A DNA stretch of 21,926 nt from a virus. The translations under genes were made by a program, and so were the position numbers. A model generated the notes under the pieces. That model did not search any database and was not told where the DNA came from. It saw only the letters and a program-made list of their open reading frames with translations. The first letter of the stretch is position 1, and each line of letters starts with the position of its first letter. The stretch lies in the IMG/VR virus record IMGVR_UViG_3300047550_003440, positions 1 through 21,926 of that record. One strand, given 5' to 3'. Below, piece after piece: positions 398 to 19,460 of the stretch.

Positions 398-829
398 TTA
401 ATTAAACCCGGATTGGAATCGGTTCCAATCTATTGCGTTCTTGATGGAGTAATTGCGATTAGAAATCATCTTGATCACTTCCTCAAGAAACTTAAGCATA
501 ATGTCATAATAACGAATCTTCAGATCAATTTTATTCAACCTCTCATCGGCGTCTAGGTGCCTCTGTAACGCCTCTTTGTCTCTAACCTTATATGGAAATG
601 GGTTTTCAATATAAACCTCTGCTGGTGCCTTTCCAGTGTAGTAGTTGTATCTTTCCAGTCTTACCTTACTATAAGTCTCTCTTGCCTTCTCTCTGAGTAA
701 GGTGATTGTATTGTAGATTGTATAATACTTTGCGTGAAGTTGTGGAATTTTTAAAGATTCGCCATGCAAATTATCGGGGTCAATGACAGAATCTCTCTGC
801 CACATTTCTTGTATTTCGTCAAGTGTCAC
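398..829 (-). CDS. uvsY: UvsY recombination mediator
   Basis: This 143-aa protein matches T4 UvsY (137 aa) in length and pattern. The N terminus MTLDEIQEMWQRD aligns with T4 MRLEDLQEELKKD. A central LERYNYYTGK matches the T4 LDYYSG region, and the C-terminal SIKNAIDWNRFQSG matches AIKHIQDMRAFEAG. UvsY loads the UvsX recombinase onto single-stranded DNA coated with gp32. The start codon is GTG at 829, sharing one base with the upstream stop (TAGTG). Alignment to T4 supports GTG over the internal ATG at residue 9. Confidence 0.9.
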   Translation of the reverse strand: MTLDEIQEMWQRDSVIDPDNLHGESLKIPQLHAKYYTIYNTITLLREKARETYSKVRLERYNYYTGKAPAEVYIENPFPYKVRDKEALQRHLDADERLNKIDLKIRYYDIMLKFLEEVIKMISNRNYSIKNAIDWNRFQSGFN

Positions 830-1371
830 TATAATCCTGTAGTAATATCATAGATAGTATACTTGAAGGTTACATCTGCTGTAAAGTACTGAATATCTGT
901 CTGAGTAGAATCGAAATTTAGTGAAGTTAAAGAAACTGGAAATAAATCTTTGAATTTTACAATAGCATTTGTATTATAGTTGCTATCCAAAATATAAAGA
1001 CTTCCATCACTGAATGCTCTTTTAGGATCTAATGGTTGAGTTAAATCATCTTGATTGGTGAGCAAGTCTCTATAATCTTGTGCGCTTTCTGGAAATCCAA
1101 GACCAGTTAACCAATTATGAATTGCCATATAGTTAACAAGATCTTCATCAACTAAGAATCTTAAATTTAAATCTTCATAAGTAAGTATATCTCCGGGTAT
1201 ATCAAGATTTTTCAAATATGTATTTTGTGTTTCAGTTTGTAGTGTTATTTCTGGAATTTTACTACCAGTGCAAAAGAAAGAAACTTTTGGTTCTTTTGCT
1301 AAAGTAAACTTAAACCCAACGGGGGATAAAAAATTTCGATTTGAAATTTGATTTGCAAATATATTTGTCAT
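829..1371 (-). CDS. Tail protein, probable gp3-like tail completion/sheath stabiliser
   Basis: The 180-aa product has FKFTLAKEPKVSFFC near the N terminus, a PGDILTYEDLNLRFLVDEDL block around residues 58-77, and NYMAIHNWLTGLGFP after it. I associate this type with a conserved myovirus structural protein encoded between gene 23 and uvsY in marine T4-like phages. The beta-rich pattern resembles tail-tube-fold proteins. Length (T4 gp3 is 176 aa) and position suggest gp3. A gp54-like tube initiator is the main alternative, although T4 gp54 is longer. It starts 2 bases after the upstream stop and overlaps uvsY by one base. A tail-structure role is more secure than the exact name. Confidence 0.6.
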   Translation of the reverse strand: MTNIFANQISNRNFLSPVGFKFTLAKEPKVSFFCTGSKIPEITLQTETQNTYLKNLDIPGDILTYEDLNLRFLVDEDLVNYMAIHNWLTGLGFPESAQDYRDLLTNQDDLTQPLDPKRAFSDGSLYILDSNYNTNAIVKFKDLFPVSLTSLNFDSTQTDIQYFTADVTFKYTIYDITTGL

Positions 1372-1373
1372 TA

Positions 1374-1976
1374 TTATTTTTTAGGTGATACTTTTTTTGA
1401 TGCTGTGGGAATTGTTGGTTCAGTTCTAACATAAATTTTTCTCTTCCCCCACTCGGTCGATGTTTTTACTGGTGCCAGATCTTGTGCAGTTCTTAGACTT
1501 AAATCCATTCCAGTTGTTTTATTATAATCACCTGATGGACCAAAATTACCAGTGTCTTGAACTGAAGTTTTAACAACTCTCGTGTCATTTCCCATTGGTT
1601 TTGTAGTTAAATTTAAGTTAGTTCCAAAAGGAATAGATGGTTCTGTGCTTTTTTTAGACTTATAAGGAATTGCAACTAATCTTTGGTTATCATTAAATTT
1701 ATGACCACTAGCAGTTAAAGATCCTGGAATGTCTACTTTACTATATGAACTTGCGTTAACTGGTTTCCATCCATATCTTTTTTGTTCTAGATCTGTGTGT
1801 GGTCTTTGAGTAAACCGACCAGTTTTTTTATTCAGAACACCTGGATGGTAGTTTTTATATGCAAGAACTTGTTGAGATTGGGGTTTTGGTTTATTTTGTG
1901 GTTTTACCAATTTCGCCAACGGATTCCAAAATTCTTGAATATTTGCATCGACGCAAAATTGTTTAAAGGACTTCAT
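1374..1976 (-). CDS. Putative capsid-targeted protein with RlpA/3D-like double-psi beta-barrel domain
   Basis: The N terminus MKSFKQF resembles the T4 capsid-targeting peptide of internal proteins (MKTYQEFIAE in IPIII), and IQE at residues 13-15 fits the gp21 cleavage rule (L/I)-x-E. Residues 30-75 are rich in Lys, Gln and Pro. Residues about 88-185 resemble an RlpA/3D double-psi beta-barrel: TASGHKFND, then IPFGTNLNL, VQDTGNFG (Asp141) and GMDLSLRTAQDLAP (Asp158). RlpA-type domains bind or cleave peptidoglycan glycan strands. One reading is an enzyme packaged in the head, but no catalysis can be shown from sequence. The C terminus is basic (KKVSPKK). It lies between the plus-strand endonuclease and the 180-aa tail gene. 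An AATAAATA box lies about 15 bases upstream. T4 has no counterpart that I recognise. Confidence 0.6.
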   Translation of the reverse strand: MKSFKQFCVDANIQEFWNPLAKLVKPQNKPKPQSQQVLAYKNYHPGVLNKKTGRFTQRPHTDLEQKRYGWKPVNASSYSKVDIPGSLTASGHKFNDNQRLVAIPYKSKKSTEPSIPFGTNLNLTTKPMGNDTRVVKTSVQDTGNFGPSGDYNKTTGMDLSLRTAQDLAPVKTSTEWGKRKIYVRTEPTIPTASKKVSPKK

Positions 1977-1990
1977 AAGTCTTTTATTTT

Positions 1991-1998
1991 TATTTATT
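1991..1998 (-). promoter_or_regulatory. Late promoter box AATAAATA before the 200-aa head-type gene
   Basis: The minus strand reads AATAAATA about 15 bases before the ATG at 1976. The gene-23 transcript probably stops at the hairpin at 3559-3580, so this box is the likely source of late transcription for the 1374-1976 gene, the gp3-like gene and uvsY. Confidence 0.4.
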
Positions 1999-2037: not shown

Positions 2038-3555
2038 ATGTTGAAATGTTTAATGAGTCTCATTCAATATCTACAGGAAAATTGGGATAAATCAAGTTTT
2101 ATAAAGATCTCATTGAATGAAAAAATTCGTAATGAGATTGAAACAGAAACATCTTTCTTAAATTTTTATTATAAATCAATTCCACTTCGCACTAGAGCAT
2201 ATGTAATTGTAAATTCAATCACTGAAGATACTTTACCAAAATGTAAATGTGGTTGTGGAAAAGTTTGTGCCATTAATCTGACATATGCAGTTCAAGGTTT
2301 TCGTAATTATGCAGATTCATTCTGTTCCCGTAAAAGTAAGACAATTTCATCCAAAGCAAAAAGTAAATTAGAATCTTTTGAGTGGATATATGCGCAGAGA
2401 GTAAGTCAAAAAAAGTCCATTGAACAAATTGCCAAAGAACTCAATATTTCTACAATACCTGTGGTAAAGTATCTCAAAAAACATCAAATTGATAATTTAG
2501 TCGATTCAAGAAGAAGAAATAGTTATAGCACCTCAATTTTAAGTGATAAAGAAAAACTTCAAAGTCTTTATGAAACTGGACTTACCTGCGAACAAATTGC
2601 AAATCAGTTGGGAACTACAAAATCTACAATTTCACGCTGGTTGAATGTCTATCAAATTCATGTAAGAGAACCAAATTCTTATGAAAGAAAAATTAAAAAA
2701 ATAAGTAAGGAAGAAAACACTTTATATGAGTATGTTAAAAGTATATATTCCGAAGAAATTATTCAGTCCAATCGTTCAATTCTAAAGGGAAAAGAACTTG
2801 ATATATATTTGCCAAAACATCAACTTGCAATTGAATATAATGGACTATATTCACATCACTACCGACCAACAGAAATTAAAGAGTCATTGATTAAAGGAAA
2901 ATCTTATCATTTACAAAAAACTCTTAAATGTGAAGAACAAGGAATTCAACTTCTACAATTTTATAGTGATGAGTGGTTATTAAAACAAGATATTGTTAAG
3001 TCAATCATTTCAAGTAAACTAAATTTAAATCAAAAAGTATATGCCAGAAAATGTGAAAAAGTAATTATAGACACTTATGAAAAAAATTGTTTTTTAAATC
3101 GATATCACATTCAAGGTGAAGATAAAAGTAGAATAAAAATAGGATTAAAGTATGAAAATGAACTTGTCTGTATAATGACTTTTTGCAAATCAAGATTTAA
3201 TCAGAATTATAAATGGGAACTTTCAAGATTTGCAAACAAGCAAGGAGTAAATGTAATTGGTGGATTCAGCAAATTGTTAAAATGGTTCAGAGAGGAAAAT
3301 GATGGAAATATTGTTTCTTATGCAGATCGAAGATATTCAAACGGAAATGTATATCTTAAAAATGGATTTGAAGTTGTAAGAATTAACTCACCTTCTTATT
3401 ATTATGTCAATCAAAATTATTCAAAAAGATTAAATCGGATGAAGTTTCAAAAAAAACTTATTGGTGCTTATGACTGTACCGAATATGAAAAAGCAAGAGA
3501 ACTTGGGTATCATAAAATATTTGATTGTGGGACGATTTGTTTTGGGTTAGCATAA
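2038..3555 (+). CDS. Free-standing Vsr-like (PD-(D/E)XK) homing endonuclease with C-terminal GNAT-like domain
   Basis: This 505-aa protein is encoded against the direction of every neighbour. In order it shows a cysteine cluster (CKCGCGKVC, residues 69-77, and Cys96), two helix-turn-helix segments (about 126-148, SIEQIAKELNIST; about 178-205, TCEQIANQLGTTKSTISRW), and a Vsr-like nuclease core. The core has GKELDIYLPKHQLAIEYNG (251-269, with Asp255 and Glu266) followed by a helix and GIQLLQFYSDEW. Residues about 330-480 (IMTFCKSR, VIGGFSKLLKWF, SYADRRYSNGNVY) recall phage endonuclease C-terminal domains with a GNAT-like pattern. Such enzymes spread their own gene by cutting alleles that lack it. 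It sits between gene 23 and the 1374-1976 gene. The true start may be ATG 2038 or 2053; neither has a clear Shine-Dalgarno sequence. Confidence 0.8.
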   Translation: MLKCLMSLIQYLQENWDKSSFIKISLNEKIRNEIETETSFLNFYYKSIPLRTRAYVIVNSITEDTLPKCKCGCGKVCAINLTYAVQGFRNYADSFCSRKSKTISSKAKSKLESFEWIYAQRVSQKKSIEQIAKELNISTIPVVKYLKKHQIDNLVDSRRRNSYSTSILSDKEKLQSLYETGLTCEQIANQLGTTKSTISRWLNVYQIHVREPNSYERKIKKISKEENTLYEYVKSIYSEEIIQSNRSILKGKELDIYLPKHQLAIEYNGLYSHHYRPTEIKESLIKGKSYHLQKTLKCEEQGIQLLQFYSDEWLLKQDIVKSIISSKLNLNQKVYARKCEKVIIDTYEKNCFLNRYHIQGEDKSRIKIGLKYENELVCIMTFCKSRFNQNYKWELSRFANKQGVNVIGGFSKLLKWFREENDGNIVSYADRRYSNGNVYLKNGFEVVRINSPSYYYVNQNYSKRLNRMKFQKKLIGAYDCTEYEKARELGYHKIFDCGTICFGLA

Positions 3556-3580
3556 AAAAAGACCCCCTTTCGGGGGTCTT
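3554..3580 (-). terminator. Rho-independent terminator after gene 23
   Basis: On the minus strand a 9-bp perfect stem (AAGACCCCC/GGGGGTCTT) encloses a GAAA tetraloop and runs into a run of seven T. It lies 20 bases after the gene 23 stop. On the plus strand the same stem follows the endonuclease stop at 3555, but without a U-run, so it would work there only weakly. Confidence 0.9.
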
Positions 3581-3599
3581 GAAGCAATATAGAAAGTGC

Positions 3600-5015
3600 T
3601 CACATAAGGTTTGCAACTTTAACTCTTCTGTAGTAAACATTAGAGTTGGTTTCGATATTGTCTGGAGCAGTTGGGAGAGTACCACCTTTAGCAAATGGAT
3701 TTGCAACAATTCCATAGCGAGTCTTAAATCCAATTTTTGGTTGGAAAGTGTGCTCACCAACAGCACGTACCATCTGGAGAGGTACATATGGGCAGTAGAA
3801 GAGACCAGCATCATAAGGAGATGCACCCTTATAACCGACAACGTAGAACTGGTTAGCAGCAACGTTTGCAGAATATGGGTCGATGTAGACTCTGTACTTA
3901 CCTTGGAGAACACCAGCAAAGGTGTTACCAGTGTCATCAACGTTAAGGTTGGCGTTGAGTGCAGGGGTGTAATCAAGAACACCTGCCATGGTGAGTGCCG
4001 AAGCAACGTCAGCAGAGCAGAGGATCATGTTACCCTTCCCTCTACGAGTTTGCTGTGCAATTGCGTTAGCATCACGCTCGATTTGGAAGATAAGACCCTT
4101 GAACTTCTCAACTGACCAACGACCGTTGCTATCAACGTCGAGGTCAAAAGTACCAGCGGTAGCGGTGTTAACCTGAGCGCCAGGAACAGCAACCTTATAA
4201 ATGGTACGAATGATTTCTCTGTTGATTTCAGCAAGAATCTCAGTGCTGAGGATGTTAGCAAGCTCAGCCTCTGCATTCAGACCATGAATTGCCTTCAGGT
4301 CTTGTGCGAGTTCGAGCGAGTATTCTGCCTTCAGAGCGCGTGACTTAGCAGTAACGGTGAGTTTCTCGATTGAGAAAGCCATCTCGTTAAAGTAGTTGGT
4401 ATTGCCGTCGCCAAGTGCTTCAGCATTACCAGTGGTCATACCTTCGCCAGTGTTGTACTTGTTAGCACCAGTTCCAGCGTTGATAGATTGATCGGTTGGA
4501 CTGAGAATTGAAGGATTAGTACCACCCTGAGCAGTAGTACCCAGACCAACTGCGCCGTCAATGAAACCTGCGGTGAGGTTACGGCTGTTATTCTGACCAG
4601 AGAATGCGGAATCTACTTCATTGTAGAATGTCTCAGCACCACTCTGATTCTGATAACGTGAACGCATTGCGAAGATGAGTCCTGTAGGGCCGTTCATTGG
4701 TTGAACGCCACAGAGATCATAAGCGATCAGGTTAGGCATTGAACGTCTGATCAGTGAGATCAGAACGGGATCAAAACCAGCAACAGGAGAACCTGTTGAA
4801 CCAGCTGCACTACCACTAAATCCACCGGTACCGGCAGAGTTGGTTGGGGAAGCTTCGCTAAGGAAAGAACGCTCTTCACGGAGTTCTCTCTCTTGGTTTT
4901 CTAGCAGGATAGCAGTTACCGATCTACGATGTGAATCTTTGATTTGATCCATTCCTTGATAATCAAGGATCGGTGCCCACTTCTCCTGCAGATATTCGGT
5001 GTTGTACATCTGCAT
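3600..5015 (-). CDS. gp23: Major capsid protein gp23
   Basis: The 471-aa product is a T4-type major head protein. It begins MQMYNTEYLQEKW, has LLENQERELREE near residues 38-48 and a prohead protease site FLSE-A, so cleavage after Glu54 would leave a mature protein of about 417 residues. The body has GLIFAMRSRY (about 113-122), KAEYSLELAQDL, NILSTEILAEINREI, and a C-terminal PYDAGLFYCPYVPLQMVRAV, all typical of gp23. Hexamers of the cleaved form build the head shell. An AGAGGT Shine-Dalgarno lies 9 bases before the first ATG, favouring it over the ATG two codons later. Codon choice looks more G+C-rich than in neighbouring genes, as expected of a very highly expressed gene. A strong terminator follows. 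Confidence 0.97.
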   Translation of the reverse strand: MQMYNTEYLQEKWAPILDYQGMDQIKDSHRRSVTAILLENQERELREERSFLSEASPTNSAGTGGFSGSAAGSTGSPVAGFDPVLISLIRRSMPNLIAYDLCGVQPMNGPTGLIFAMRSRYQNQSGAETFYNEVDSAFSGQNNSRNLTAGFIDGAVGLGTTAQGGTNPSILSPTDQSINAGTGANKYNTGEGMTTGNAEALGDGNTNYFNEMAFSIEKLTVTAKSRALKAEYSLELAQDLKAIHGLNAEAELANILSTEILAEINREIIRTIYKVAVPGAQVNTATAGTFDLDVDSNGRWSVEKFKGLIFQIERDANAIAQQTRRGKGNMILCSADVASALTMAGVLDYTPALNANLNVDDTGNTFAGVLQGKYRVYIDPYSANVAANQFYVVGYKGASPYDAGLFYCPYVPLQMVRAVGEHTFQPKIGFKTRYGIVANPFAKGGTLPTAPDNIETNSNVYYRRVKVANLM

Positions 5016-5046
5016 TTGATTTTTACCTCTTTAAAAAGTTTTGTTT

Positions 5047-5054
5047 GATTTATA
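5047..5054 (-). promoter_or_regulatory. Late-promoter-like box TATAAATC before gene 23
   Basis: The minus strand reads TATAAATC, one base off the T4 late box TATAAATA, about 32 bases before the gene 23 ATG in the gp22-gp23 gap. A separate promoter for the capsid gene would fit its high expression. The last-base mismatch keeps confidence moderate. Confidence 0.4.
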
Positions 5055-5063
5055 ATCTAAAAA

Positions 5064-6179
5064 TCACTTGTTAGCGACTCTACTGAGAGTCTGAAGATAT
5101 GCTTCCATGATTGGGGAAACTGAAGATTGTTCAGATCCTTCATAAGAAACTTCCTCTGATAAATTCTCAGTTACATCTCTTTGAGTACCAGCGTTTGATG
5201 GGAAATATGATTCCCTCAGAGTTACTAGTTTCTCACGATAGTTTTCTTCACTATCAAACTCAACATTTTCTGCAAGAGAAGCGAGTTTGTCTTTCTGAGA
5301 AAGTGCGAGACCCTCAGCGACATCTGCAAAAATTACATCAGCAACTGACTCTGCTAATCTTCTATTAAGAGCAATATTTCTTTCGATTTGCTCGTTGAGT
5401 TTTTCTTCCATTTCATCAAGTTTATCTACCATACTCTCGATTACATCATATCTATCTTCAGGAATTGAAACATAATGATCTTCAAAAAGACTCTTCATTC
5501 CGGCGAGGAATGATTCGGTCATTTCAGTCTTAAGACCGTGCTCAATGGCAAGTGCATTCTCTTGAATCCACTCATCAGCAACATACTCAAGATAAGTATC
5601 TAAACGCTCAGTTAATTCTTCTTTGATAAACTGAACTTCTTCAATAAGAGCATTTTCATAAGTTTCTTGAAGTTCTTCTTTGATTTCAGAAACTTTAGAA
5701 CGAATTGCTGCTTCAAAAATAGTGCGTGCTTTCTCTTGGAATTCCTCAGAAAGTTCTTCACCTTCAAGAAGAGCATTGACATCTTCTTCAATGTTAAATT
5801 CTTCTTCAACTTCTTCTTCGTCTTCTTCGTCTTCTTCTACTTCTTCTTCATCTTCGTCAAGTTCTTCTTCATCGATAAGATCTTCTTCCTCATCAACTTC
5901 TTCCTTTGCCAACGTTGGCATAGGTTCTGCAGCTGCTGCTTTAGCGTTAACTACATTCTTTACCTGAGTAAGAGTTGCTCCAGGAGTTTTAAGTGTTGCG
6001 GAATCATCGTCTGGACGATAATTTTCTGGGGTAGGTCCACCTAAATCCTCCCAACTACCAGTTTGCCCAGGAATCATAACTCCAGAAGCATTCTGTGCAA
6101 TTGTGCTCATTGGTTCGGCAGGTGCAGCCCCTTTGGTTACTACGTTTTCCATTTCTTGTAAATTTCTACCAACGGACAT
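5064..6179 (-). CDS. gp22: Prohead core scaffolding protein gp22
   Basis: The 371-aa protein lies between gp21 and gp23, as in T4. The C-terminal two thirds (about residues 140-371) are rich in Glu, Leu and Lys with heptad-like spacing, as expected of the helical core scaffold (for example VDKLDEMEEKLNEQIERNIA). The N-terminal part is Ala/Pro-rich, carries a near-duplicate segment (residues about 11-29 and 74-92, sharing AEPM-x-T-I/L-A) and then an almost purely acidic tract at about 93-134. gp22 forms the inner core on which gp23 assembles, and gp21 then degrades it; several (L/I)-x-E sites are present. A TATAAATA box precedes it. Confidence 0.88.
   Translation of the reverse strand: MSVGRNLQEMENVVTKGAAPAEPMSTIAQNASGVMIPGQTGSWEDLGGPTPENYRPDDDSATLKTPGATLTQVKNVVNAKAAAAEPMPTLAKEEVDEEEDLIDEEELDEDEEEVEEDEEDEEEVEEEFNIEEDVNALLEGEELSEEFQEKARTIFEAAIRSKVSEIKEELQETYENALIEEVQFIKEELTERLDTYLEYVADEWIQENALAIEHGLKTEMTESFLAGMKSLFEDHYVSIPEDRYDVIESMVDKLDEMEEKLNEQIERNIALNRRLAESVADVIFADVAEGLALSQKDKLASLAENVEFDSEENYREKLVTLRESYFPSNAGTQRDVTENLSEEVSYEGSEQSSVSPIMEAYLQTLSRVANK
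5904..6149 (-). repeat. Internal 19-residue duplication in gp22
   Basis: Residues 11-29 (ENVVTKGAAPAEPMSTIAQ) and 74-92 (KNVVNAKAAAAEPMPTLAK) align without gaps and share NVV, the Ala-rich block, AEPM, T and A. They occupy 6093-6149 and 5904-5960, within the flexible N-terminal part before the acidic tract. Confidence 0.7.
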
Positions 6180-12327: not shown

Positions 12328-12555
12328 TTACCAATCAGGATAATGCCATTCAGTTAAATATATATTTTTTTTCCTATATTCTTGAACTCTTTTTATAGTG
12401 CATTCTTTACACTCATAAGAATAAGATGATGGTAAAGTATAATTTTTACGAGTACGATAAAAACCATCTAATAAGTTTTTTTTAATTCCACAAACCTTAC
12501 ATTTTCTATCGTCAAGAAATAAATGCTCTATTTCAAATTGATTTTCTAAGTCCAC
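12328..12555 (-). CDS. Small four-cysteine zinc-finger protein
   Basis: The 75-aa product has two CxxC knuckles, CKVC at residues 19-22 and CKEC at 49-52, with FYRTRKN between and a basic helix KRVQEYRKKN after. This is the zinc-binding scaffold seen at the start of many phage HNH/endonuclease VII-like proteins, but no HNH catalytic His-Asn-His set is visible. It may be a DNA-binding accessory or a remnant of a mobile endonuclease. The start is GTG at 12555, sharing one base with the gp17 C-piece stop (TAGTG). The coupling suggests co-translation with the terminase nuclease piece. Confidence 0.6.
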   Translation of the reverse strand: MDLENQFEIEHLFLDDRKCKVCGIKKNLLDGFYRTRKNYTLPSSYSYECKECTIKRVQEYRKKNIYLTEWHYPDW

Positions 12556-13769
12556 TATCTATAATCCCACATATAAGATCTATCACCATATTCATCAACA
12601 TTCCATACCTCTAAAGCATTATTTTCGCTTTTTGATCCTGCAAATATCCATCTATCTCCGGTTTCCTCATCAACAGTGATGCTGAAATCATCTAGTCCAT
12701 CTGCAATAAATCCAAATGGTGCCATATCTTGTTCTATTTGATTTTTTTGTTCTTCATAAATTCTTTTACGAACATCATTATCCGTCATCTCTTTGAAATA
12801 GTCCTGTGCGACCAACCAAGAGAAGATTACAAGGCACATTGCCAAATCATCATTACAACCCTCTTCTGCCTCAAAGGAGTTGTGTCTCTGAGCGAATGTG
12901 GTTAACTCAGATATGATATCATAATCTACCGTAAGTAATTTATCATCTTCCATTAAGGTTTTTAAGTTAGAACATCCCAACTTTTTAACGGCTGCAGTTG
13001 TTCTTACACCAAGTTGCGATTTCTTACCACTAAATCCAGATCCTACAATTTGTCCAGCACGACCTCTCATGGCACACATTAAGACATTATCATATTCCAA
13101 ATCAAAGTGAAGAATATTTGCAACCTGATCTCCAATATCATTAACTTCAACTAATAACCAAGAATTATTATATCCTTTTGCCACTTCATGAATAACACTT
13201 GGAAATAGCATTGGTTTAATTTCATTATTTTTATATTTTGCTACAACTTTATAAGGAAAATTAGTAATATCAAAGACAATGAATGCTGAATAATCATTCC
13301 CAATTCCACGAGCAACGTCAACGGTCATCAAATAGTTGTGTTCCTCTTTTGGATTTTCATAAATGTCAAGACCTGCGTTCCTTTTTATTGGGTCTTCATA
13401 AACAAGATTTTTGAGTTTTGCTGGATTGATAAGAGTGTTTGTAGATCCCAAAAATTCGCAGTTATGTGATATTATATTATTTGAATAATATAAATTATCT
13501 TCTCCAACATCAAGTAAATCATAAAGATATACTTCTTTTTCTACAATTTCATTATAAACTACTTTTTTTCCCTGTAAAAAATCATCAACTTTAATCATTG
13601 ATGCTTTAATTTGTTCTTCTCCAAAAGAATGGTTATCAGAACACTTTATTTCTGACCCATCATCAAATATTATCCAATGATAAAAAGGTTTATATACTTT
13701 TTGAATTCCAGAAAAAGATTTAAATCCACTTGGAGTCTTTACTGTAATATTTTTATTAAGTTTAAACAT
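12555..13769 (-). CDS. gp17: gp17 terminase piece 3: C-intein 2 fused to the nuclease domain
   Basis: Residues 1-103 are a C-intein: TPSGFKSFSGIQKV, block B-like SDNHSFG (His47), then LYDLLDVGEDNLYYSNN and terminal SHN with catalytic Asn103. Cys104 is the +1 nucleophile. Residues 104-404 are the terminase C-terminal nuclease, starting CEFLGSTNTLI, which aligns with T4 AFEGTSGTLIS. Acidic residues typical of the RNase H-like fold are present: Asp151 (TVDVARGIGNDY), Glu208 (LLVEVND) and Asp307/308 (CNDDLAMCLVIFSW). This domain cuts concatemeric DNA during packaging. The ATG overlaps the GIY-YIG gene stop by 8 bases. Alone it would carry a 103-residue intein on its N terminus, so trans-splicing with piece 2 is inferred. 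Confidence 0.93.
   Translation of the reverse strand: MFKLNKNITVKTPSGFKSFSGIQKVYKPFYHWIIFDDGSEIKCSDNHSFGEEQIKASMIKVDDFLQGKKVVYNEIVEKEVYLYDLLDVGEDNLYYSNNIISHNCEFLGSTNTLINPAKLKNLVYEDPIKRNAGLDIYENPKEEHNYLMTVDVARGIGNDYSAFIVFDITNFPYKVVAKYKNNEIKPMLFPSVIHEVAKGYNNSWLLVEVNDIGDQVANILHFDLEYDNVLMCAMRGRAGQIVGSGFSGKKSQLGVRTTAAVKKLGCSNLKTLMEDDKLLTVDYDIISELTTFAQRHNSFEAEEGCNDDLAMCLVIFSWLVAQDYFKEMTDNDVRKRIYEEQKNQIEQDMAPFGFIADGLDDFSITVDEETGDRWIFAGSKSENNALEVWNVDEYGDRSYMWDYR
13461..13769 (-). other. Split intein 2, C-terminal half (103 aa)
   Basis: This half contains all intein blocks except the first and ends in His-Asn before Cys+1. I recall close similarity to the atypically split AceL-TerL intein from a metagenomic phage terminase, which has a 25-residue N half and begins MFRTN where this begins MFKLN; both share a GIQKV segment. 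That comparison is from memory and needs an alignment. Confidence 0.9.
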
Positions 13770-14331
13770 TTGACCAGCACTCTTTTAAAATAATTCTTTT
13801 TATTCCTTGTGGAGTTAAATTATAATCTTTGGCATATTCTTTGCAAAATGCCTGAATGTATGATAATTTTTTACCATTTTTCATAACAACCCCAACATTT
13901 TTTAAGTCTGGTTTTTCATTATATAGTTTTCTTATCTCTCTTATCTGCTCATCATTTATTTTTCTACTAAAAACTCTACCTTTTCTAGAGTTACTCATTT
14001 TTTCTATGGTTTCTTCAGAGAAGCAATTTTTAATTCCTTTGTTCCAAGGAACAGTGCCTTTTTTTACTCCTCCAATTCCCTTTCGTTCGTAATTATCAAA
14101 TCCTTCTCCACCAGTAGACTTATTCCAACCATTCTTAAAAGTATCAAATTTTTCTATGTAAAAAATTTCTGCCTCTTTTGCTTTTTCCGGAATATCTATC
14201 TGTTCATTTATTTCAAAAGTATGTGGTGGTTTATTTCTTTTATGCTCCCTTTTTCTAGCATCTAAATTTTGCGTTTGTCCCACATATTTAATATTACCGT
14301 TCAAATCCTTAAGAAAGTAAATATAATACAT
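13762..14331 (-). CDS. Free-standing GIY-YIG homing endonuclease in the second gp17 break
   Basis: The 189-aa product has the GIY-YIG core in order: YYIYFLKDLNGNIKYVGQT (residues 2-20), the Arg-His segment DARKREHKR (24-32), the catalytic Glu in EIFYIEKF (55-62) and GWNKSTGGEG (68-77). A NUMOD3-like GVKKGTVPWNKGIKN follows, then a basic helical region and a C-terminal helix-turn-helix-like segment (AKDYNLTPQGIKRII). GIY-YIG enzymes such as I-TevI spread introns, inteins or themselves. It lies between N-intein 2 and C-intein 2. Its stop overlaps the C-intein ATG by 8 bases. It has its own TATAAATA box 10 bases upstream but no Shine-Dalgarno. Confidence 0.9.
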   Translation of the reverse strand: MYYIYFLKDLNGNIKYVGQTQNLDARKREHKRNKPPHTFEINEQIDIPEKAKEAEIFYIEKFDTFKNGWNKSTGGEGFDNYERKGIGGVKKGTVPWNKGIKNCFSEETIEKMSNSRKGRVFSRKINDEQIREIRKLYNEKPDLKNVGVVMKNGKKLSYIQAFCKEYAKDYNLTPQGIKRIILKECWSNV

Positions 14332-14340
14332 TTTTTTAAT

Positions 14341-14348
14341 TATTTATA
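14341..14348 (-). promoter_or_regulatory. Late promoter TATAAATA for the GIY-YIG gene
   Basis: A perfect T4 late box lies in the 28-base gap between the N-intein 2 stop and the GIY-YIG ATG, only 10 bases before that ATG. The leader would be nearly absent. The transcript would also cover gp17 piece 3. Confidence 0.5.
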
Positions 14349-14364
14349 ATCCAAAAAACTCACA
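14344..14364 (-). other. Ghost of the C-extein junction after N-intein 2
   Basis: Overlapping the stop of gp17 piece 2, in the +1 frame, the minus strand encodes Cys-Glu-Phe-Phe-Gly-Leu-stop. The real extein after intein 2 begins Cys-Glu-Phe-Leu-Gly-Ser at 13460. The first 15 bases differ at three positions, all third codon positions. I infer a decayed copy of the intein/extein junction, possibly left by the insertion event. Chance is not excluded at this length. Confidence 0.4.
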
Positions 14365-15331
14365 ATCGTTGATATAAATCTTCCATAGAAATTTTTTGAG
14401 GAATACCATTCTCATCTAAAATTTCTATCATGGTATCTCCACTTAAGCACTCAAACTCAACTTTAAACTGTTGTTCTGAGGTGTTTGCAATCGTCTGCTC
14501 CTTCCAGGCGGCGTCTCTACCGGGCACTTCAGACCAATGAACATCTGTAGGTACATATTCGTTCTTGCCCCTTTCAGCGTCATGCCACATACGGTAGAAG
14601 TGGTTCATACCGCGTGGTGTAGATACGATAATTACTTTCGTGCTTTGTCCAGAAGAAATAGTAGGATAAACAGAGGCAAAGAAGTCATCAGCAATGTGAT
14701 TCGGGATGAAAGCGAACTCGTCAAGAAAGATGACATTATAGGATCCGCCTCGGACAGCAGATGAAGAAGTAGAGTTAGATGAAATTTTGGATCCATTTTC
14801 TAATTCTAGAGATCCCTTATTCCAAGATATAATACCTTGTTGCATCCACTTAGGTAGATTCTCATAAGCAAGTTGTAGTCTTCCAAGAAGGTCTCTTGCT
14901 GTGGATGCTTTGTTTGCAAGAATAGCAATATTCACATTATCATTGAACACTGCATAATGAAGAAGATATGAGACAACAGTTGTAGAATTGTGTGAAACTA
15001 TTTCATTACTGTAAAATATATTACCATTATCAACATCAAGAAGATCATACATATTAGAAATTCTTGATGTTTTTTTTAATTGTAATATTTTTTCTGCGCC
15101 ATTTTTTGTTTGTATACAGTCATCAATGGAACAATCTTCACAATAAACTTCTTGCCATTTATCATTTAATAAGATGTGTTTATCTGCACATATAAGAGAT
15201 TTTCCAGTTTCGGTTACAACCTCCCATTCTTCATATTCTATAGTTTTTCCTACCCCAGAAAAAGATTGCCATCCAGAAGGAGTTTCTACTTCCCATTCAT
15301 CAGTTTTTATTTCTTCAATAAATTTAGACAT
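14360..15331 (-). CDS. gp17: gp17 terminase piece 2: C-intein 1, ATPase body, N-intein 2
   Basis: Residues 1-115 are C-intein 1 (TPSGWQSFSGVGK, ADKH with His52, YDLLDVDNGNIFYSN, ending SHN with Asn115). Residues 116-294 are the terminase ATPase after the P-loop lysine: Ser116 as +1 nucleophile and P-loop Ser, SWNKGSLELENGSKI (169-183), Walker B NVIFLDEFAFIP (Asp204, Glu205) and coupling motif STPRG (237-241). Cys295 opens N-intein 2 (CLSGDTMIEILDENGIPQK, then EDLYQRL, 29 residues). The extein matches T4 gp17 closely (TTVV, GIVEWNKGSIELDNGS, TTPNGLNHFY). The ATG overlaps the Vsr-like gene stop by 8 bases, with GGAG 7 bases upstream. The piece cannot be a full ATPase without trans-splicing. Confidence 0.94.
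   Translation of the reverse strand: MSKFIEEIKTDEWEVETPSGWQSFSGVGKTIEYEEWEVVTETGKSLICADKHILLNDKWQEVYCEDCSIDDCIQTKNGAEKILQLKKTSRISNMYDLLDVDNGNIFYSNEIVSHNSTTVVSYLLHYAVFNDNVNIAILANKASTARDLLGRLQLAYENLPKWMQQGIISWNKGSLELENGSKISSNSTSSSAVRGGSYNVIFLDEFAFIPNHIADDFFASVYPTISSGQSTKVIIVSTPRGMNHFYRMWHDAERGKNEYVPTDVHWSEVPGRDAAWKEQTIANTSEQQFKVEFECLSGDTMIEILDENGIPQKISMEDLYQRL
14363..14449 (-). other. Split intein 2, N-terminal half (29 aa)
   Basis: It starts at Cys295 of piece 2 with CLSGDTMIEI, a standard intein block A, and ends at EDLYQRL before TGA. At 29 residues it is much shorter than the roughly 90-100 residues of usual N-inteins. The end resembles the AceL-TerL N-intein as I recall it (EDLYKRLA). Confidence 0.88.
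14987..15331 (-). other. Split intein 1, C-terminal half (115 aa)
   Basis: It shares TPSG-(W/F)-x-SFSG, YDLLDV, YSN and SHN with C-intein 2, so the two inteins are related, but overall they are well diverged. It ends in Asn115 before Ser+1. The 115 residues hold block B (ADKH) through block G. Confidence 0.9.
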
Positions 15332-15596
15332 TTAAAAACTCCAAGCATTTTTTAATAGCATACTCTTTATTATTTCTATATTCTTCTTCTTTAATATGAA
15401 GAACTTCAAATCCATTATTTTGTATAATTTCGTCTCTTTGCCAATCTCTCAATCTGTTTGAATTTCTAATTATATATCTTCCATGCCAATAAGTACCATC
15501 AAATTCTATAATTTTTTTACTCTTGATATTTATAAAATCTGGAAAAATAAATCTGTTACCCAAATTTAATCTATATTCATTATTTAATTCCGCCAT
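15324..15596 (-). CDS. Free-standing Vsr-like endonuclease in the first gp17 break (90 aa)
   Basis: The 90-aa product has the short-patch-repair (Vsr)/PD-(D/E)XK pattern: NRFIFPDFINIKSKKIIEFD (residues 14-33, Asp20, Glu31, Asp33), GTYWHGR, then RDWQRDEIIQNNGFEVLHIK (50-69) followed by EEEY. Vsr-like homing enzymes are known from fractured genes in marine phage metagenomes, where they lie between split-intein halves. It is shorter than bacterial Vsr (about 136 aa) and lacks an obvious DNA-binding extension, so it may be a minimal or N-truncated form. It starts 17 bases after the piece 1 stop and overlaps the piece 2 ATG by 8 bases. No late box is seen in the short gap before it, so it is probably transcribed with gp17. 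Confidence 0.82.
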   Translation of the reverse strand: MAELNNEYRLNLGNRFIFPDFINIKSKKIIEFDGTYWHGRYIIRNSNRLRDWQRDEIIQNNGFEVLHIKEEEYRNNKEYAIKKCLEFLNV

Positions 15597-15613
15597 TTAC
15601 AATTTCTCCACAG

Positions 15614-15988
15614 TCAAGGCAAATCAGTATTACTTTCTTTCTTGATTTTTTCATAAAATTCTCCAATAGTCACTTCAATAATTTCTCCAGTAAGTTTATT
15701 CCTTAACCTTACCGTTGTATTTGTATTAAAACATTTACCCGTCTGACGGGGCATTTTACATATATTAAATCTATTTTCGTGGAAATTTTTGATTAATTTT
15801 TCTTGAAACGGATACATTTCAAAGGGAACTAGACCGTGATCGAGAGACACGATCTTAATATAATTTCTAGCAAAATATACTGGATCTTCTTTACACCTTA
15901 AGAACTCAATAATTTGTTCTTCTGTAAACTCAATAGGCGTATTTGCTTTTTTAAGCAAAGGATTACCCAAATACACATCATTGGACAT
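15614..15988 (-). CDS. gp17: gp17 terminase piece 1: N-terminal ATPase segment and N-intein 1
   Basis: Residues 1-85 are the start of the large terminase: the FARNYIKIVSLDHGLVPFEM region, the adenine-binding YPFQEKLIKNF segment (59-69), and Walker A PRQTGK (80-85), matching SRQLGK of T4. At Cys86 the sequence becomes an intein block A, CFNTNTTVRLRNKLTGEIIE, continuing VTIGEFYEKIKKES to a TGA after 39 intein residues. The break falls between the Walker A lysine and the Ser/Thr that binds magnesium, so this piece cannot act alone. A GGAG lies 7 bases before the ATG. With pieces 2 and 3 the spliced terminase would be 85 + 179 + 301 = 565 residues (T4 gp17 is 610). Confidence 0.93.
   Translation of the reverse strand: MSNDVYLGNPLLKKANTPIEFTEEQIIEFLRCKEDPVYFARNYIKIVSLDHGLVPFEMYPFQEKLIKNFHENRFNICKMPRQTGKCFNTNTTVRLRNKLTGEIIEVTIGEFYEKIKKESNTDLP
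15617..15733 (-). other. Split intein 1, N-terminal half (39 aa)
   Basis: It begins at Cys86 of piece 1 immediately after the Walker A lysine. The pattern C-F-N-T-N-T-x-V, a turn, then I-x-x-V-T-I-G-E-F fits intein block A and the following strand. At most 39 residues belong to it. Confidence 0.87.
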
Positions 15989-16001: not shown

Positions 16002-17585
16002 TTAATCCTCTACATAAATGAACGAAACATTAGCAGCAGTAATATTAGATGTAGATGAAATTACTGCGGTTAAGAAATTATTTGGTGGAATATGAATACC
16101 CATATCAATTAAATTAACATCAAGAGTGGAGTTATCTGCTACATGAAATGCAGCAATAGGTGGTATTGATTGTGCCCCTAATGCAAATAATCCCGTACTA
16201 TCCTGAGTTGCAGTAAGTGATGTATTAAAATCACCCTGAGTTGTCCATCTCAAATAATTTGCAATTGTTGGATTATAATATAAACGAATAACCGCAGGAT
16301 CACCAACAGTATTCACAGATGCAGTAAGTCTTGAAATAATAAGATCTCTGGTATTAATCTTACCTTGATAAACAAGTTTATTCTTAACTGAAAGAAGATG
16401 ATATAGAGAACCAGGAGTATTCATTGAATCGTTTCTGGTTGCAGTTATTGAATATGGAAGTCTTGTTCTTTCAACAATACCTTCAATTGCACCTAAGAAT
16501 GATGCTCCTCTACAAGTAACAACACCTACACCACCATTAATATTTGCTGCAACATATCCAATCTTCATTGATGGATTTGCTAGGTGTGGTAGTTCGTTTC
16601 TATTAGAATAATGCTCGTGATGGAAGAAAATCATATCCCCATTTAGAGGATTTTCAATCGCATATCTAATCTCACCAGAACCTAACCAACGGAAGTTGAT
16701 TTGATATACATTCAGTTTAGATGGGTCTAGAGTAATACCAGAGTATCCAGTTCCATCAAGTTTATCTAAATTAAAATCTTCTTGGAAAGTCCAGTTTTCT
16801 GTTTGTACTACCCCTGCCTGTTCTATTTGGTTTGTAAAAGATGCTGCTGCTGTGCTGGTTAGATTAAAAGTTCCAAGTTGAGGACCAAGAGATGTTGCTA
16901 AAAATCTTAATCTTGATTGGTCATACTCAACCAACCACAAAGCATTGAAGAGTGCTTGTGCTCTTAGTCCTTGTGCGAGTTGAGAAAGATTTCCTGCAAG
17001 TGTTCCTGAATTTACTGTTACTGCAGTGAAAGATGTTCCATTGAGAGTGACTGTTACATTTCCATCATCAAGTGTAGTAAAGTCAAATCCTTGAATTCTT
17101 GCTTTACCACCATTCGCACGAAGAACACCAAACTTCCCATTGGTGTGTGCATATCCAATTTGAATTGCTTGTTCTTGATTGAATAGTCCTGCTCTTTGTG
17201 TAAATCCTACTGGGTTATTTGAAAAAGAACCAGTAAATCTTGCAACAACACCTTGTCCTGGACGGTATCTAATAAAGTTTGTGCTTCTGATTACACCATA
17301 AGAATTTGCAGATGATCCAGCACCTACTACGAATGTGGAATTACTATGAGTAGCAATTCCTGTTGCACTAAATGTAAATGTCTCAAACTCTCTTGGATCT
17401 AATCCATAGACAGCATCTGCCTGAATTTTTGGTGTAATGGGAATTGAAATATTCTCACCAAAGGCAGATTTAGAGCAAGCACTTTCATTTAGGATATTTC
17501 CATACTCATCAGCACGGAGATAAACCTCATGAAGTGTTCGTTCTTGATTTAGATAATCTTGTGTAGTCTTATTCCACTGAGCCAT
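16002..17585 (-). CDS. Virion structural protein of marine T4-like phage type (function unknown)
   Basis: The 527-aa product starts MAQWNKTTQDYLNQERTLHE. It contains RYRPGQGVVARFTGSF (about 104-119), GYAHTNGKFGVLRANGGKAR, WLGSGEIRYAIENPLNGDMI and a Thr/Asn/Ser-rich C-terminal half. I recognise the type as a large beta-rich structural protein found near the terminase genes in marine phages; similar stretches also occur in algal-virus proteins, by memory. A receptor-binding, fibre or decoration role is possible but unproven. No signal peptide or membrane segment is seen. The start shares one base with the upstream stop (TAATG), and gp17 piece 1 follows after 13 bases. Confidence 0.65.
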   Translation of the reverse strand: MAQWNKTTQDYLNQERTLHEVYLRADEYGNILNESACSKSAFGENISIPITPKIQADAVYGLDPREFETFTFSATGIATHSNSTFVVGAGSSANSYGVIRSTNFIRYRPGQGVVARFTGSFSNNPVGFTQRAGLFNQEQAIQIGYAHTNGKFGVLRANGGKARIQGFDFTTLDDGNVTVTLNGTSFTAVTVNSGTLAGNLSQLAQGLRAQALFNALWLVEYDQSRLRFLATSLGPQLGTFNLTSTAAASFTNQIEQAGVVQTENWTFQEDFNLDKLDGTGYSGITLDPSKLNVYQINFRWLGSGEIRYAIENPLNGDMIFFHHEHYSNRNELPHLANPSMKIGYVAANINGGVGVVTCRGASFLGAIEGIVERTRLPYSITATRNDSMNTPGSLYHLLSVKNKLVYQGKINTRDLIISRLTASVNTVGDPAVIRLYYNPTIANYLRWTTQGDFNTSLTATQDSTGLFALGAQSIPPIAAFHVADNSTLDVNLIDMGIHIPPNNFLTAVISSTSNITAANVSFIYVED

Positions 17586-17896
17586 TAATCACTCCACGAT
17601 AATCTTTCTGGTCTGTATCTTTGTGCGTTTTTAACTCTTGAAGTATTTTCCTGGGATGGATACACATTATGAACAATGGCACCAGGATATTCTCCCTGAA
17701 GTTGCTCTGTAAGTTCATTTTTGGAAGGCATAGAACCTTCTATCTCCATTCTATATATCTTACCTTCCCAAACCACATCTGCAAAATATGATTCTGTGGT
17801 AGGTTCTGATTGTGGTGAACCACCTACATTTAAAGTTCCATTAAAATTGCCATTAATGGTAATGCTTTCTGATAGAAATTGTTGAAAAGATTTCAT
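17585..17896 (-). CDS. Small protein with capsid-targeting-like N terminus
   Basis: The 103-aa product begins MKSFQQFLSES. The first ten residues closely resemble the T4 capsid-targeting sequence MKTYQEFIAE, and LSE-S fits gp21 cleavage after Glu10. I infer that it is taken into the prohead and processed to about 93 residues. After a polar linker (TINGNFNGTLNVGGSPQSEP) a compact domain, VVWEGKIYRMEIEGSMPSKN and LTEQLQGEYPGAIVHNVYP, has a beta-alpha-beta look. The basic tail is KNAQRYRPERLSW. Function after delivery is unknown. It overlaps the 527-aa gene by one base. Confidence 0.65.
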   Translation of the reverse strand: MKSFQQFLSESITINGNFNGTLNVGGSPQSEPTTESYFADVVWEGKIYRMEIEGSMPSKNELTEQLQGEYPGAIVHNVYPSQENTSRVKNAQRYRPERLSWSD

Positions 17897-17897
17897 T

Positions 17898-19460
17898 TTA
17901 GTTACAGTTCCAACGACGGAGTGCTTTGTTAATTCTTGAATCTGGATCTCGTGCAGTTTTTGCTGATGTAAGTTTAGACTTCATGCCTTTCATACGCCGG
18001 CAGAAGTTAGCGCGACGCTTTGCTCTTTTTCCAGTTGGTTTCTTTTCAGTTACAGCAGTTTGAAGTTTTGAACCTGGATTCTCGCGACGATAAGCATCTA
18101 CTGCTGCTTGACTCAATCCATCAGTTTTATCTTTACGGTTGACTTTTTGCCAGTCCTCACTCAAATCCATTTCTGCTCGCCAGTTAGAAAATCCTTCTAC
18201 TTTTACACAGCGATTATAGGTTTTACCAAATAATTTCTGAGTTCCTTGTTTCTTGTATCCTGTCCAACATTTCTTCGCTTCACTCATTTCTCCACTATCA
18301 ACATAATCTGCTGCAGAATCTAAGTAATCTGCTGCTTTTGTGATTTTTGATTGAACCCAAGCTTCAATGTTTCCCTCACCTTTCATTTTTTTACGAAGTC
18401 TTTTTACTGCAGAGATAATCGTAGATAATTCGGAGCGAGCCATAGAATGTTCATGATCATAAGACTCTGGCATATTTCCAGGATGAGGAGTATTTGGTGT
18501 ATATTTTTTACCTAAACTCATAGGTAATGAATACATATCCCAATATTTTACTCCATATTTACATTCATCCCGAGTTTCATTTTTTTCACATTTTGGACAG
18601 TATCTAATCATTTTTACCTCCTCTGATTTAGTACCCCAATTGTCAGCACCAACTCTACGACATTTAACCAGTGCTCCTGATGCATATGCACTTGGCCAAA
18701 CAGAATATCTTGATTTTACTTTATGGTAGCAAGCATCTTTAGATCCGCTACCTTTTCCAGGTTTGTCTTTTCTTGCTTCGTTAAGTTCCATTGATTCTTT
18801 GATTCCTGGTTCTGCTTTTACGTAATTGGCATCTTTTTTACCTTTTGCGAATGTAGAAACCATTGTTGGTTTTGCCCCACCAGATTTTGCTTGTTGACTT
18901 TTATCTTTTTGTCTTTTTCTACGAACTGCTGACTTAATAAGCGAAAGTCCTTTTTTACCTTTCTTTTTTAGTGCCTTTAATCTTCCACTACTAAAACATT
19001 TAGGTGTCTTAGTTTCACCTGGTTCATTGGCACATGGAGAACCATCTGCTTGAACCCATCCAGGTTTTCCATCTTTAGACTTAGAACCCTTAAACCAATG
19101 ATGAAGAGTCCCTTCAGAAACTGAAACATCCTTGAACTTTTTATGTTCTTTTTTTGCTTCTGCTTCCATTTTTTTCAAACGAGTATAATAATCTGGAATT
19201 TCATCTAAATGTTGAAGTGCAATTTCTCTAGCAAGTTCATGATTTTTTGTATGCTCATGTTCAATGGGTTCTCCCATTTTTAGTTGCCTTTCAATAAAAG
19301 AAACTTCTAAACGATGCTTCTTTGCTATTTGCTCAACTGTTTTAATTGGTTTAAGTTGCTCTTTCAATCTTTTTTTGCGACCTTGGCAATGCGCTTTCTG
19401 AGAAAATCCTTTTGGATTGTCGCAATCAATAGATTTTTTATATTTTTCCGACCAACCCAT
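17898..19460 (-). CDS. Lys-rich multi-module protein, concatenation of short Cys/Trp modules
   Basis: This 520-aa protein is a chain of short modules. They are SIDCDNPKGFSQKAHCQGRK (10-29); a helical unit with EIALQHLDEIPDYYTRLKKM (79-98; DUF5661-like); SKDGKPGWVQADGSPC (128-143, with Cys155; DUF5872-like); DACYHKVKSRYSVWPSAYAS (242-261); a CPKC zinc-ribbon-like unit (288-300); a long helical unit (340-390); CWTGYKKQGTQKLFGKTYNR (398-417); and a C-terminal unit with AYRRENPGSKLQTAV and ANFCRRMKGM (456-520; DUF6321-like). I recall these as conserved modules of marine phages and some algal viruses, usually in short proteins. Family names are from memory. The charge suggests nucleic-acid binding or packaging with DNA. 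It lies between gp16 and a capsid-targeted gene. Confidence 0.7.
   Translation of the reverse strand: MGWSEKYKKSIDCDNPKGFSQKAHCQGRKKRLKEQLKPIKTVEQIAKKHRLEVSFIERQLKMGEPIEHEHTKNHELAREIALQHLDEIPDYYTRLKKMEAEAKKEHKKFKDVSVSEGTLHHWFKGSKSKDGKPGWVQADGSPCANEPGETKTPKCFSSGRLKALKKKGKKGLSLIKSAVRRKRQKDKSQQAKSGGAKPTMVSTFAKGKKDANYVKAEPGIKESMELNEARKDKPGKGSGSKDACYHKVKSRYSVWPSAYASGALVKCRRVGADNWGTKSEEVKMIRYCPKCEKNETRDECKYGVKYWDMYSLPMSLGKKYTPNTPHPGNMPESYDHEHSMARSELSTIISAVKRLRKKMKGEGNIEAWVQSKITKAADYLDSAADYVDSGEMSEAKKCWTGYKKQGTQKLFGKTYNRCVKVEGFSNWRAEMDLSEDWQKVNRKDKTDGLSQAAVDAYRRENPGSKLQTAVTEKKPTGKRAKRRANFCRRMKGMKSKLTSAKTARDPDSRINKALRRWNCN

Follow-up and report, generated by a model that had tools for sequence, protein, structure and literature searches.

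An RlpA-like double-psi beta-barrel protein predicted to be packaged in the heads of T4-like cyanophages

Does a T4-like cyanophage store a protein with the fold of a cell-wall enzyme in its head and send it into the host together with its DNA? The question is raised by one gene in the virus record IMGVR_UViG_3300047550_003440, whose positions 1 to 21,926 (21,926 nt) make up the window analysed here. A first-pass annotation had seen in its product a capsid-targeting-like start, an IQE cleavage site and an RlpA/3D-like barrel pattern, and had proposed that a wall-acting enzyme is packaged in the head, freed by gp21 cleavage and delivered with the DNA. All the motifs it quoted are present in the translation, namely MKSFKQF (residues 1-7), IQE (13-15), IPFGT (115-119), VQDTGNFG (139-146) and MDLSLRTAQDLA (157-168). 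Our main reading, to which we assign a probability of about one half, is that the gene encodes an internal head protein that would be docked by its tag, cut by gp21 and ejected, with the barrel then acting on host glycan.

The window holds the head and tail gene cluster of a T4-like cyanophage on its minus strand, in the order gp15, gp16, gp17 (interrupted), gp18, gp19, gp20, gp21, gp22, gp23, barrel gene, gp3 and uvsY, with part of these names assigned by gene order. The features around the barrel gene are:

829 to 1371, minus strand: gp3 (tail completion), directly downstream of the barrel gene; named from the gene order in T4-like cyanophages
1374 to 1976, minus strand: 200-residue protein with a predicted capsid-targeting sequence (CTS) and a modelled double-psi beta-barrel (DPBB); open reading frame with ATG start, about 60 distinct relatives
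1991 to 1998, minus strand: late-promoter motif AATAAATA, 15-22 bp before the start codon; cyanophage consensus NATAAATA
2038 to 3555, plus strand: homing endonuclease between gp23 and the barrel gene
3559 to 3580, minus strand: intrinsic terminator after gp23
3600 to 5015, minus strand: gp23 major capsid protein, 94.5% identical to that of Synechococcus phage S-SRM01
5064 to 6179, minus strand: gp22 scaffold, on which the CTS is predicted to dock as it does in T4 (PMC9026906)
6351 to 7001, minus strand: gp21 prohead protease, predicted processing enzyme of the barrel protein

For the gene at 829-1371 the PHROGs label is tail tube, as opposed to the tail-completion role that gene order gives to gp3. 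The barrel gene adjoins gp23 in most relatives, as the first-pass annotation had said of this locus, but in the window itself the homing endonuclease on the opposite strand intervenes. It also does so in a near-identical locus (L002); in the other relatives in which a long stretch separates gp23 from the gene, no match to the window's endonuclease was seen. Elsewhere in the cluster, the gp17 terminase (12555-15988, minus strand) is split twice in a 'fractured' gene layout, with a free-standing endonuclease between the halves. The breaks resemble split inteins (CFNTNTTVRL... with ...IVSHN/S, and CLSGDTMIEI... with ...IISHN/C), and the endonucleases at them are Vsr/DUF559-like (15324-15596) and GIY-YIG (13762-14331).

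Late expression of the barrel gene is highly likely. The motif upstream of it corresponds to the late-promoter consensus of cyanophages (PMC2984593), and [AC]TAAATA lies 12-46 bp before the start codon in 23 of the 24 copies found in the slot between gp23 and gp3 (0.02 expected per 35 bp), in many of which it follows an intrinsic terminator after gp23. The same motif is found upstream of 7 of the 14 copies located outside this slot.

The case for packaging comes from the N-terminal part of the protein, which divides as follows:

1932 to 1976, minus strand: residues 1-15, capsid-targeting-like sequence MKSFKQFCVDANIQE, with a predicted gp21 cut after Glu15
1869 to 1931, minus strand: residues 16-36, fast-evolving linker rich in Pro and Lys
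1761 to 1868, minus strand: residues 37-72, motif VLAYKNYxPGVLxKxTGKFTQRxHTxxEQKRYGWKP, specific to the family and more conserved than any other part

Over pairs of relatives that are not independent of each other, the median ratio of region dN to gene dS is 0.24 for residues 1-15, 0.65 for the linker, 0.19 (0.185) for residues 37-72 and 0.34 for the barrel. Searched alone, residues 37-72 gave significant matches to the barrel family only. In T4, the first 10 residues of IPIII are enough for encapsidation, targeting depends mostly on CTS residues 4 and 7 and processing on residues 8 and 10, and propeptides of 10-19 residues are removed by gp21, which cleaves after L/I-x-E (PMC9026906). The barrel protein shares with T4 IPI, IPII and IPIII the MK[ST][FY]x[QE]F start, an L/I-x-E motif ending 10-19 residues in, the character of a late gene and the gp21/gp22/gp23 system. 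It differs from them in that its packaging is predicted, its mature part is RlpA-like, unlike any T4 internal protein, and the residue following Glu15 is bulky (F/L/N/G in the family) where IPI, IPII and IPIII have Ala.

Converted to a DNA pattern, the tag MK[ST][FY]x[QE]F matches exactly ipI, ipII, ipIII and 61.1 in the 169-kb T4 genome. Ten cyanophage records gave 33 matches, spread over 9 records with 1-8 each and mostly in unannotated genes; the reversed pattern gave none in the same ten records. The window contains two copies of the CTS DNA pattern ATGAARWSNTWYNNNSARTTY, which none of 100 shuffles contained. The strict tag was absent from all genes of S-SM1, S-PM2 and Syn9, so that the virion proteomes published for these three phages have no bearing on tagged proteins. 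Within the barrel family, K2, [ST]3, [FY]4 and F7 are retained (F4 and F7 in the window), the strict pattern is present in 51 of 57 family rows, and one more (L092) begins MRTFKEF.

The cleavage motif is kept as well. I13-Q-E15 is the sole [LI]xE in the window protein, and Glu15 is present in all 46 members with that column filled, next to a linker evolving about 2.7 times faster. Of the 51 tagged relatives, which share descent and are not independent trials, 46 have [LIVM]xE within residues 8-22; over 2000 shuffles of the linkers the count averaged 6.4 and never exceeded 16. Members without residues 12-36 show the 10-residue layout of T4 (e.g., MKTFREFLSE/S), and in one member (L039) the IQE stretch is gone. 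Asp is frequent at position 10 of the family; in T4, Asp at this position blocks cutting at 10 and leaves targeting unaffected. Cleavage after Glu15 is probable, and packaging in the head is likely.

Three scans of IMG/VR yielded about 60 distinct relatives. The named phages with the gene are Synechococcus phage S-PRM1 (gp029, YP_010097732), whose host is WH7803, and DSL-LC03, and in both it is annotated as a hypothetical protein. In the S-PRM1 protein the predicted cut falls after ...GLEE. A scan of 84,980 prokaryote genomes returned no relative, so that the family is viral within the reach of the search, and no cellular donor is known. Most copies occupy the gp23/gp3 slot. Other copies neighbour gp32, are found near nrdB in company with large modular proteins, or separate uvsY from uvsW. 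In the tree, the gp32, uvsY/uvsW and L096/L097 sites form one clade each, and copies at the nrdB site fall into two. Outside the gp23/gp3 slot, every full-length stand-alone copy retains the tag, which therefore is not a by-product of adjacency to gp23. One nrdB-site copy (L054) is instead fused to a larger protein; there (2490-4514) the barrel lies C-terminally in a modular protein of 674 aa that also contains a HAD-like stretch.

Several other relatives have unusual surroundings or architectures. In L081, whose barrel gene is at the uvsY/uvsW site, a second CTS-tagged gene (5220-5984, MKTFREFILE/A) is its upstream neighbour, in tandem. L021 has DUF3008 fused to the barrel in place of the CTS. 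L024 (about 4826-5560) and L044 (about 6001) have a broken frame or an out-of-frame N-terminus, perhaps from decay or sequencing errors. A phage protein resembling cyanobacterial SLH-domain porins is encoded a few kb from the barrel gene in L032 (10689-12173) and L096 (8444-9943).

The distribution bears on two other explanations. If the tag leads the protein to the scaffold and the barrel is a structural part of the head with no function after ejection, this would be a head-assembly or core protein, and its gene does adjoin gp23 in most relatives, while the T4 core proteins gp67 and gp68 are likewise small and processed (PMC9026906). The slot, however, is empty in S-CAM9, holds an unrelated 56-aa tagged protein in S-SRM01 (the phage with the 94.5% identical capsid protein) and a 2OG-FeII oxygenase in P-SSM2. 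These related phages have no barrel gene at that position, and an accessory, mobile gene better suits a cargo, so that we regard a purely structural role as improbable. The other explanation takes the MKSF start as incidental and the protein as an unpackaged wall enzyme acting within the cell or at lysis. DSL-LC03 and S-PM2 do have genes for ordinary RlpA-like proteins away from the head cluster, but these proteins are untagged, and that of S-PM2 has a signal-peptide-like start, whereas the barrel family has no signal peptide and carries the tag and cleavage motif at every location. An unpackaged enzyme accordingly has as little likelihood as a structural one. The capsid-targeting start and IQE cleavage site proposed earlier are thus upheld, as predictions from sequence, by the T4 control, by Glu15 in 46 of 46 members and by the tag kept at all sites. 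We infer that head packaging and processing are well supported, and the barrel proteins form a genuine new family whose members are predicted to be internal to the head.

What, then, does the head protein carry? The C-terminal two thirds contain:

1410 to 1772, minus strand: residues 69-189, modelled RlpA/barwin-like DPBB, from two structure models, structural matches and hhalign
1554 to 1556, minus strand: Asp141 (in DTGNFG), 57 of 57 rows; aligns with the Asp of RlpA INDRG and by motif order corresponds to YuiC D151/MltA D297
1503 to 1505, minus strand: Asp158 (in MDLS), 57 of 57 rows; aligns with the Asp of RlpA IDLS and by motif order corresponds to the catalytic YuiC D162/MltA D308

AlphaFold2 with 41 family sequences gave a model with a mean pLDDT of 82, and about 90 across most of the barrel. 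The best solved match to residues 68-189 is the RlpA-like protein PA4485 (4avr; Z 12.3, rmsd 2.4, 93 aligned, 27% identity, TMt 0.81), followed by residues 285-393 of the hub of cyanophage A-1(L) (8kea; Z 11.9, 26% identity). Kiwellins (Z 11.5), SPI (5ntb, Z 10.5) and expansins come close behind RlpA in this ranking, and the diffocin baseplate (8v3w) is also among the DPBB structures matched. An earlier model from 12 sequences had the same top two by VIA-align, with Foldseek placing kiwellins first. A weak match to MltA (2g6g, E 1.3) is the only MltA/YuiC-type entry among the structural matches listed, and the viral models matched include an RlpA-like protein of S-CBWM1 and a 3D protein. By hhalign, the family compares with three RlpA-like sequences at 2e-7 (P), with 35% identity over 75 columns. 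That residues 69-189 adopt a DPBB fold is, on these models, nearly certain; structure prediction and fold comparison, which the first-pass annotation had put forward as the check on its RlpA/3D-like reading, returned a double-psi barrel and not an unrelated fold, and profile-profile comparison agrees.

The resemblance to RlpA lies below what family models detect. None of 12 members matched PF03330 (DPBB_1) at E<=1, and Pfam assigned no domain to the barrel proteins, the DUF3008 match being confined to the fusion L021. With PA4485 and DPBB_1 the window protein shares the fold and the S-x-Y, TAxG, PFGT, DxG and [IM]DLS motifs. It differs from RlpA in its long insertions, in the replacement of a His by Pro and in having no signal peptide, lipobox or SPOR domain. 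Neither the protein nor small profiles found a relevant match by sequence in the PDB (a PHA granule-associated protein at E 0.95 is a chance hit), and PHROG 7930, 'lipoprotein precursor', was set aside at E 0.001 only. A gene with this product name in S-PM2 is plainly RlpA-like.

Since DPBBs occur in tails, the protein might also be a tail or baseplate part. Examples are the solved A-1(L) hub (8kea), the diffocin baseplate (8v3w) and a 575-aa frame of S-CBWM1, and the next gene in the window is gp3. The A-1(L) 'endoglucanase' domain and the window protein are both cyanophage DPBBs, the virion place of the latter being predicted; the former, however, belongs as a single domain to the 899-aa tail hub gp15, whereas the window protein is free-standing, 200 aa long and head-tagged, without hub domains, and its gene lies beside gp32 or nrdB in some phages. 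A place in the tail is therefore very improbable. The frame that adjoins the DPBB frame of S-CBWM1 (L102; MG450654, about 95408-95668) looks peptidase-like, so that the DPBB frame may be a tail hub like A-1(L) gp15.

Whether the packaged barrel is an enzyme is a harder question. Besides Asp141 and Asp158, Tyr78 is invariant (57 of 57), as is the TAxG loop, and position 76 is Ser in 55 of the 56 rows covering it and Thr in the remaining one. In YuiC and MltA, the last of three Asp residues is catalytic and a Thr orients it; the middle Asp and a Tyr are proposed to assist (PMC4499186). By motif order, though not by alignment to YuiC, Asp158, Asp141, Tyr78 and Ser/Thr76 match the catalytic Asp, the second Asp, the Tyr and the orienting Thr. 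In this order (Thr/Ser-x-Tyr, DTG Asp, catalytic Asp) the barrel family resembles the 3D/Sps domain, YuiC and MltA. The difference is at the first of the three conserved aspartates that define the 3D domain (PF06725): this position, the histidine of TAAH in RlpA, is Pro104 in 57 of 57 rows. We keep the barrel protein apart from the RlpA and 3D families: it does not match their family models and has neither the RlpA His nor the first 3D Asp.

Conservation of Asp141 and Asp158 was considered as proof of catalysis and was rejected on the kiwellin control, in which the double-psi fold and both aspartates are present. No role as a wall enzyme is known for kiwellins, so that the two aspartates, taken alone, are suggestive of catalysis without establishing it. 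An active DPBB is nonetheless known from a cyanophage virion: that of A-1(L) lyses Anabaena cells, and its point mutants lose expression or activity (PMC10966104). From its sequence, wall cleavage by the barrel protein is only plausible, and we put activity on glycan at somewhat less than an even chance. Of the earlier proposal of a wall-acting enzyme delivered with the DNA, the targeting, the cleavage site and the RlpA-like fold thus stand as predictions, while the enzymatic step is put in doubt by the change of His to an invariant Pro104 and by the kiwellins.

The main rival follows from the same observations. The protein may be packaged and ejected like T4 IPI, with a barrel that has no enzymatic activity and blocks a cytoplasmic protein of the host by binding or inhibiting it; kiwellins and the Streptomyces papain inhibitor (SPI) use the same fold in this way. 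Kiwellins and SPI fit the model nearly as well as RlpA, all members have lost the RlpA His, and T4-type internal proteins are injected against host defences (PMC3012670, PMC9026906). Kiwellin and SPI are secreted plant or Streptomyces proteins with no head tag, sharing the fold and, for kiwellin, both aspartates. By sequence, however, the closest proteins are RlpA-like ones and the wall-lysing domain of A-1(L), and the invariance of Tyr78, Asp141, Asp158 and the TAxG loop over deep divergence is beyond what is expected of a fast-evolving inhibitor surface. We consider an injected inhibitor unlikely, though well ahead of the structural, unpackaged and tail explanations.

For the glycan-acting head protein, the following course can be proposed. 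During late head assembly, the N-terminal 15 residues would dock the protein on the gp22 scaffold, and gp21 would cut after Glu15 to leave a mature protein of about 185 residues consisting of linker, family motif and barrel. By analogy with the T4 internal proteins, it would probably be ejected with the DNA, and as infection begins the barrel may then act on a glycan of the host, which is probably peptidoglycan; this is the least certain step. The cytoplasm has no peptidoglycan. IPI, Alt and other internal proteins of T4 have the host cytoplasm as their site of action (PMC9026906), so that delivery to the periplasm is an extra assumption, and a role at the wall would need release of the barrel protein there. 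A precedent for a muralytic enzyme packaged in the head is the lytic transglycosylase gp16 of T7 (PMC5380687). The shared idea is a wall enzyme kept in the head and ejected with the DNA; unlike the barrel protein, gp16 is a 143-kDa core protein of a podovirus with neither CTS nor DPBB.

We also considered that the barrel protein substitutes for a missing tail lysozyme. The gp5 of DSL-LC03 has no Phage_lysozyme match, but the baseplate cluster of this phage contains proteins annotated as lysozyme C- and carboxypeptidase-like, which weakens this idea; DSL-LC03 has no obvious need for a head enzyme. As DSL-LC03 has its own RlpA-like gene in addition to these lysozyme-like genes, the head protein would be an addition rather than a replacement. 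If a head-borne, glycan-active barrel does exist, it would give a T4-like phage a second route to the host wall beside its tail enzymes.

More broadly, and tentatively, the CTS may be a general address for injected cargo in T4-like cyanophages, one such cargo being a glycan-cleaving barrel that is stored in the head, freed by gp21 and brought to the envelope with the genome. This predicts an injected-cargo system for an abundant group of marine and freshwater viruses. Among the papers searched, we found no description of capsid-targeting sequences in cyanophages, and the tag pattern makes the question of their injected proteins open to direct proteomics.

Other tagged or head-associated genes were seen along the way. 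The window has a second CTS-tagged gene:

17585 to 17896, minus strand: protein starting MKSFQQFLSE/S, phrog_1742, function unassigned

Its tag is of a clean T4 type, and a homolog is present in 135 cyanophage records. The gene next to it (17898-19460, minus strand) encodes a modular, very basic 520-aa protein with DUF5661 and DUF6321, which may be another internal head protein. In T4 itself, gene 61.1 (NC_000866, 18966-19130), the only gene with the strict tag besides ipI-III, encodes a 54-aa hypothetical protein and may be an unrecognised internal protein.
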